A stretch of DNA of 58,105 bases from Actinomycetota bacterium (GTDB lineage Bacteria > Actinomycetota > Actinomycetes > Nanopelagicales > Nanopelagicaceae): the NCBI GenBank assembly GCA_009701185.1, contig WLKQ01000003.1, positions 1-58,105 on the forward strand, read 5' to 3'. How positions within the stretch are numbered: the stretch's first letter is position 1; each line of letters opens with the position of its first letter. A model generated the notes under the pieces. The model saw only the letters and a list, made by a program, of their open reading frames with translations. It was not told where the DNA came from and did not search any database. This document shows, in pieces, positions 49,462-50,247 of this stretch. Both the position numbers and the translations under genes were made by a program.

Positions 49462-49517
49462 TACTCCCCCTTTCGATTAACTGCACTTAACTCATTAACT
49501 AACTGGTGTTATCTGAA

Positions 49518-49619
49518 CTCTCACCTCTGGTCACCGCCGGCCGACGGATCTGTTTAGTAGCGGCGCCGGGGAAGGGGCGCCGATACGTTCGAAGGGTCGG
49601 CGGTGGCCACAAATGAGAG
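49518..49619 (-). ncRNA. Structured leader between mraZ and rsmH, probably the mraW RNA motif
   Basis: On the minus strand CTCTCA (49619-49614) can pair with TGAGAG (49523-49518), and GGCCACCGCCGAC pairs imperfectly with GTCGGCCGGCGGTGACC. An inner hairpin GGCGCC-CCTTCCCC-GGCGCC lies near the middle. The element fills most of the 162-bp gap. An actinobacterial RNA motif called mraW is known upstream of mraW/rsmH genes, and this fits by place and by its long GC-rich stem in an otherwise low-GC genome. It could be cis-regulatory; I could not compare it with the family model. Confidence 0.65.
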
Positions 49620-49623
49620 TCAT

Positions 49624-50055
49624 TTAGAAAAGTCCCGGAAAGACCTCCTCTGAAACATCAGCAAAACTCTTTTCGCGATCTGCTAAATATTCATTCCAAG
49701 AAGTTGCATCCCAAATTTCTACGCGAGTATTTGCGCCAATAACAACGCAATCTTTTTCAAGGCCTGCATATGTACGAAGTCCTTGCGGAATTGTTATGCG
49801 ACCTTGGCGATCTGGAATTTCATCATGTGCACCTGCAAACATCACACGGCTGTAATCGCGTGCTGATTTTGCAGTGACTGGCGCTTGTTTTAGCGTTTCC
49901 GTAATAACAGAAAATTCATTTGTTGGAAAAACATAAAGACAACGTTCTTGTCCTTTTGTAATTACTAAACCTGAAGCAAGCTCTTCGCGAAATTTCGCAG
50001 GAAGAATGAGACGACCTTTTTCATCAAGGCGCGGTTCGTGGGTGCCTAGAAACAT
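49624..50055 (-). CDS. mraZ: Transcriptional regulator MraZ
   Basis: DNA-binding regulator of the division and cell-wall cluster, 143 residues. It has two SpoVT/AbrB-like repeats: [19 protein letters not shown] near residue 11 and [20 protein letters not shown] near residue 85, each with the DxxGR and P-F/L-R pattern. [15 protein letters not shown] is the normal start; a G-rich site (GGGGAAGGGGG) lies upstream. MraZ forms rings that bind short tandem repeats before its own gene, and such repeats are present at 50111-50190, so it probably autoregulates the cluster. Confidence 0.96.
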
Positions 50056-50110
50056 TTTCAGCGCCCCCTTCCCCAGGTTCGCTAGCCGTGTGGATTCTCG
50101 GCTTAGTTCC

Positions 50111-50190
50111 CCACTTTACTCCACTTTCCTCCTTTTTCAACCACCTTTCGCCACTATTTTCCCTTTTCCGCCCACTCTCCCCCCACTGCG
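50111..50190 (-). promoter_or_regulatory. MraZ operator array: eight 10-bp units
   Basis: Between the DUF3040 terminator and mraZ, the plus strand shows a CC-initial unit every 10 bp: ccactttact (50111), ccactttcct (50121), cctttttcaa, ccacctttcg, ccactatttt, cccttttccg, cccactctcc and ccccactgcg. In mraZ orientation this is AAAGTGG or a variant repeated at helical pitch; four units carry CCAC in the same register, two carry it shifted by 1-2 bp, and two are degenerate. It resembles MraZ sites described in Mollicutes (AAAGTG-type repeats) and the TGGG-N5 repeats of E. coli, but is longer. Confidence 0.8.
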
Positions 50191-50197
50191 AAGGCAT

Positions 50198-50224
50198 AAA
50201 AAAAGACCCTCACAAGGAGGGCCT
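50198..50224 (-). terminator. Rho-independent terminator after DUF3040
   Basis: On the minus strand AGGCCCTC pairs with GAGGGTCT (8 bp, one G-U), the loop is CTTGT, and seven T's follow. It lies 24 bp after the DUF3040 stop and insulates the SOS polymerase operon from mraZ. Confidence 0.9.
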
Positions 50225-50247
50225 CTATGGTGAATTCCGGTGATGTC

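Follow-up and report, generated by a model that had tools for sequence, protein, structure and literature searches.

A candidate eight-unit MraZ operator, helically phased around the mraZ promoter, in Nanopelagicaceae

Organization of the mraZ locus

The stretch of DNA analyzed here (hereafter the window) spans 58,105 nucleotides, positions 1 to 58,105 of contig WLKQ01000003.1 from the assembly of a freshwater Actinomycetota bacterium affiliated with the Nanopelagicaceae (GCA_009701185.1), and includes a division (dcw) gene cluster. MraZ stands at the head of the division cluster in many bacteria, and in the window mraZ occupies 49624–50055 on the minus strand (PF02381, E 3.3e-41). The gene is single-copy in this genome, and the structure model of its product matches solved MraZ structures at Z 19–22, with 1n0e, 9qlg and 9sz7 at Z 20–22. 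An initial, sequence-only reading of the window had counted 17 genes in the cluster, which agrees with the order of the ORFs. Pfam matches confirm MraZ, MraW, two Mur ligases, MraY-type and MurG-type transferases, FtsZ, two genes after FtsZ, SepF and YggT, the remaining cluster genes being named from their order and length only.

Two further features were noted on either side of mraZ. In the gap between mraZ and mraW (49507–49626, minus strand), a sub-threshold match to the Rfam mraW RNA (RF01746; 29.2 bits for a gathering threshold of 50, E 0.0097), found in the same place in a relative (L002, 31.3 bits), may correspond to a divergent mraW cis-regulatory RNA. Upstream of the cluster, the segment 50634–55383 (minus strand) encodes a Y-family DNA polymerase (IMS, Pfam), a DUF6504 protein and, as judged by eye, a long DnaE-type-like ORF, and reads as a translesion-synthesis-like cassette adjoining the division cluster.

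Immediately in front of mraZ, which opens the dcw cluster, the minus strand carries eight consecutive units of 10–11 bp, comprising six GTGG boxes and two degenerate units that retain GG. Numbered outwards from the gene, these are units 1 (GTGG, 50111–50114), 2 (GTGG, 50121–50124), 3 (AAGG, 50131–50134), 4 (GTGG, 50141–50144), 5 (GTGG, 50151–50154), 6 (AGGG, 50161–50164), 7 (GTGG, 50172–50175) and 8 (GTGG, 50183–50186), the higher coordinate of each pair being the first base of the unit on the minus strand and the lower one the first base of its plus-strand complement (CCTT at 50131, CCCT at 50161, CCAC elsewhere). On the plus strand, the CCAC at 50111, 50121, 50141 and 50151 share one register, and those at 50172 and 50183 are displaced from it by 1–2 bp; from distal to proximal, unit spacings are 11, 11, 10, 10, 10, 10 and 10 bp. 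The coordinates and the layout of the units are as the sequence-only reading had given them. The array qualifies as a row of MraZ boxes (at least three direct (A)GTGG/TGGG repeats with a 10-bp period; here eight units, six of them strict), and is bounded upstream by an intrinsic terminator-like hairpin of the neighboring DUF3040 gene (50202–50226, minus strand).

Absent from that earlier description is a promoter inside the array. The sole promoter-like site found near mraZ, TTGAAA-16-TAAAGT at 50140–50113 on the minus strand, has its -35 (50135–50140) and -10 (50113–50118) covered by the proximal boxes, with the distal boxes lying upstream. Units 4 and 3 abut the -35 on its upstream and downstream sides, respectively, unit 2 falls within the -35/-10 spacer, and unit 1 begins with the last two bases of the -10. 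Beyond the array, the mraZ leader (50056–50110, minus strand, with a putative start site) includes the Shine-Dalgarno-like CTGGGGAAGGGGG. A Shine-Dalgarno-like block, GGGGAAGG, is invariant in this leader and is preceded, by eye, by a variable GC-rich inverted repeat. RNAalifold returned no covarying stem for a possible conserved leader hairpin (GCCG...CGGC by eye), whose loop is poorly aligned.

Identity of the boxes

The array was scored with a one-box weight matrix trained on 33 mraZ upstream regions from outside the Nanopelagicaceae (132 boxes), searching for chains of boxes 9–12 bp apart. On both strands of the 58-kb window, the array chain reached a score of 29.1 and the runner-up chain 12.6, and the score of the array was not matched in any of 3000 shuffles of the leader (160 bp) that preserved its dinucleotides. 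The sharing of one exact register by four GTGG has a p-value of ~2e-4, and the distal half by itself is in register with the proximal half at p = 0.0025, the lowest value that 400 shuffles can give.

To check the matrix against known sites, we applied it to E. coli K-12, where its three best hits lie at -44, -34 and -24 relative to the ATG and a degenerate box at -14 comes fourth. Since a matrix trained on other families of actinobacteria picks up both the array of the window and the three MraZ boxes of E. coli, the label of MraZ boxes, under which the units had first been presented, is well founded. Pattern searches of the rest of the available assembly (88.6% complete) yielded weak matches only and nothing comparable to the array; these matches were set aside, most of them belonging to a low-complexity GTGGGT repeat of contig C1 that is unrelated to it.

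Conservation in Nanopelagicaceae and beyond

MraZ operators usually carry three or four boxes. With unit counts that admit weak units, the longest chain has a median of eight units across 125 distinct Nanopelagicaceae mraZ leaders, vs. four in 51 leaders from other families of the same class and also four in 27 from other classes, so that the array is indeed about twice the usual length, as first proposed. A search of the available papers for box counts in actinobacterial MraZ operators yielded none.

Family-wide, box positions were numbered from unit 4, which abuts the -35 on its upstream side and was set to 0, with NTGG as the box core. On the proximal side, NTGG is found at +30 in 100% of the Nanopelagicaceae (unit 1, part of the anchor), at +20 in 76% (unit 2), at +10 in 38% (unit 3, where GG is invariant) and at 0 in 95%, and on the distal side at -10 in 87% (unit 5), at -20 to -22 in 25% (unit 6), at -30 to -32 in 63% (unit 7) and at -41/-42 in 51% (unit 8). 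The gaps between these positions are nearly empty, and NTGG occurs at -52 in 5% of the family. This occupancy profile, with the near-absence of boxes at -52, indicates that the family array consists of eight positions and ends there. The embedded promoter is likewise recognizable across the family (TAAAGT in 123 and TTGAAA in 86 of the 125 leaders); in most other families, TTGAC(G/C) and TAnnGT stand in its place with the same spacing. Around the promoter, conservation drops directly past the last box.

Compared with shuffles, an in-register upstream extension is significant (p < 0.05) in 101 of 122 Nanopelagicaceae, a sample weighted towards close relatives, relatedness inflating the nominal p-values, as well as in 10 of 13 members of a second family (f18) and 13 of 51 leaders from other families of the class. 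The test is independent of the training set for the Nanopelagicaceae themselves and only partly so for f18, because four f18 sequences contributed to the matrix. In 90 of the 122 Nanopelagicaceae, the distal half is in register beyond shuffles. Most Nanopelagicaceae thus share the eight-unit layout with this genome, and the 10-bp period, whose conservation in relatives the idea of a long operator depended on, is found family-wide together with the eight-unit extent and recurs in f18. Unit 6 is the weakest position throughout the family and several relatives are without distal boxes, which suggests that the distal half is not indispensable.

Comparison with known operators

In E. coli, MraZ acts as an autorepressor, and an M. 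genitalium mraZ mutant shows increased dcw transcripts (PMC8475190). The E. coli mraZ operator resembles the present array in its direct GTGG(G) repeats placed exactly 10 bp apart before mraZ, but is limited to three boxes and a degenerate fourth near the ATG (-44 to -14), whereas the eight units here contain the promoter. Mycoplasma operators share the AAAGTGG-like units, the 10-bp period and the regulator fold; however, they engage three or four units per complex, i.e., a single octamer on the (AAAGTGKN3)3 site (PMC5282649) and the solved complex of M. genitalium MraZ on a 4-box promoter (9sz7), as opposed to the eight units here, whose spacing slips past the fifth.

Closer in taxonomy, the common actinobacterial mraZ operator also embeds a promoter of the same spacing, with boxes that flank the -35 and overlap the -10. 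It typically has four units, one of them downstream of the -10; this downstream box is present in most other Actinomycetes sampled and missing from the Nanopelagicaceae, which have upstream units instead. The f18 operator is similar in having eight or more units, often spaced 10, 10, 12, 10, 10, 10 and 10 bp, which gives a 3+5 layout much like that of the Nanopelagicaceae, but differs in that its five-box block sits one box nearer the gene and in that most of its boxes are perfect GTGG. Weak downstream matches enter the f18 counts and inflate those above eight. Three f18 leaders (L112, L221 and L225) have more GTGG motifs past the promoter boxes, e.g., GAGTGGTCCG, and f18 arrays may therefore exceed eight units.

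Helical phase and models of MraZ binding

Units 1 to 5 follow one another at exactly 10 bp, and a slip of 0–2 bp occurs between the fifth and seventh units in the Nanopelagicaceae. In the window, this slip of 1–2 bp brings the array back into helical phase, a feature that, like the invariant GG of the degenerate units, the earlier description did not contain. Relative to box 0, the mean phase of the distal boxes is -0.14 bp at 10.4 bp per turn and +0.18 bp at 10.5, and such near-zero values place the distal boxes on the same face of B-DNA as the proximal ones, the mean box spacing being ~10.3 bp with all boxes on one face.

We consider that the array is probably an autoregulatory MraZ operator around the dcw promoter, taken up by two rings, or by one ring with a cooperative extension. 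The presumed ligand in this species would be MraZ itself, the product of the adjacent gene. Because the proximal boxes flank and overlap the -35 and -10, MraZ bound to them (50111–50154) would exclude RNA polymerase and would thus be expected to repress. The distal three units, upstream of the -35 on the same helix face, would most likely load a second ring, or else stabilize or extend the first one cooperatively; autorepression of the 17 genes would then be predicted to become tighter or to depend more sharply on MraZ concentration. Given that a single Mycoplasma octamer sits on three repeats and that complex 9sz7 involves four boxes, eight boxes suggest more than one ring.

Function could instead be limited to the proximal, class-wide boxes, the distal units being left over from a tandem duplication within a G-rich spacer. 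The proximal boxes do tend to score higher and are common to other families, and about one fifth of the Nanopelagicaceae are without a significant extension. However, in 76 clusters with <66% identity in the distal segment, the boxes from -15 to -46 are coherent in phase (R = 0.68, p = 2e-4 vs. randomly rotated segments), i.e., the distal register has been kept although its surroundings have diverged, and the extension recurs in f18. We thus regard this explanation as unlikely.

The number eight itself invites another model, in which one octamer wraps the ~80-bp array once with one subunit per box, forming a small nucleosome-like repressor complex on the division promoter that would have arisen more than once among Actinomycetes. 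Wrapping of DNA had been raised in the sequence-only reading alongside the binding of two rings, either of which might give the cluster a sharper or stepped control. It would account for a box number equal to the eight subunits of an octameric MraZ ring, for a family array with eight positions and then none (eight in most of the family, about eight in f18), and for boxes that all lie on one face. Yet a complex of Mycoplasma MraZ contains three or four boxes, the break in spacing past unit 5 suggests two blocks, and f18 has additional weaker boxes downstream, all of which makes a single wrapped octamer rather improbable. As far as spacing can tell, the block of five units at exactly 10 bp followed by a slip would fit two abutting assemblies somewhat better than a continuous wrap.

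The distal boxes share one helical face and begin immediately before the -35, a placement also to be expected if they served activation, with upstream MraZ touching RNA polymerase at low MraZ and occupancy of the proximal boxes repressing at high MraZ. However, we found no functional evidence that this promoter is activated, and since the proximal boxes tend to be closer to the consensus, proximal repression should come first; we therefore give this model very little weight. Hardly credible at all is a G-quadruplex in place of a protein operator, for which there is a reported precedent in the S. aureus mraZ promoter (PMC11796246) and a G-rich strand here, but neither the array nor the leader of the window contains the canonical G3+N1-7 four-run motif, which is present in only 35 of the 125 family members, and a quadruplex would need neither the 10-bp period nor the conserved T of GTGG.

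The doubled, phase-locked layout around the promoter in Nanopelagicaceae and the similar 3+5 layout of f18 offer natural operators for studying ring stoichiometry, cooperativity and dose response. They bear on why box number varies between operators and on the way in which a protein ring that is closed can read boxes set out in a line.

Two observations concern the regulator gene itself in other lineages. In genus g33 of family f17 (e.g., G166, G184 and G198, with genomes of 6–11 Mb), no MraZ match was seen among the genomes listed, and this lineage appears to have lost MraZ, unlike nearly all other families of the class. Another genome (G179) has two MraZ copies on separate contigs (L236 and L237), and each copy is preceded by a box array with an embedded promoter; the duplication could stem from mixed strains in the assembly.
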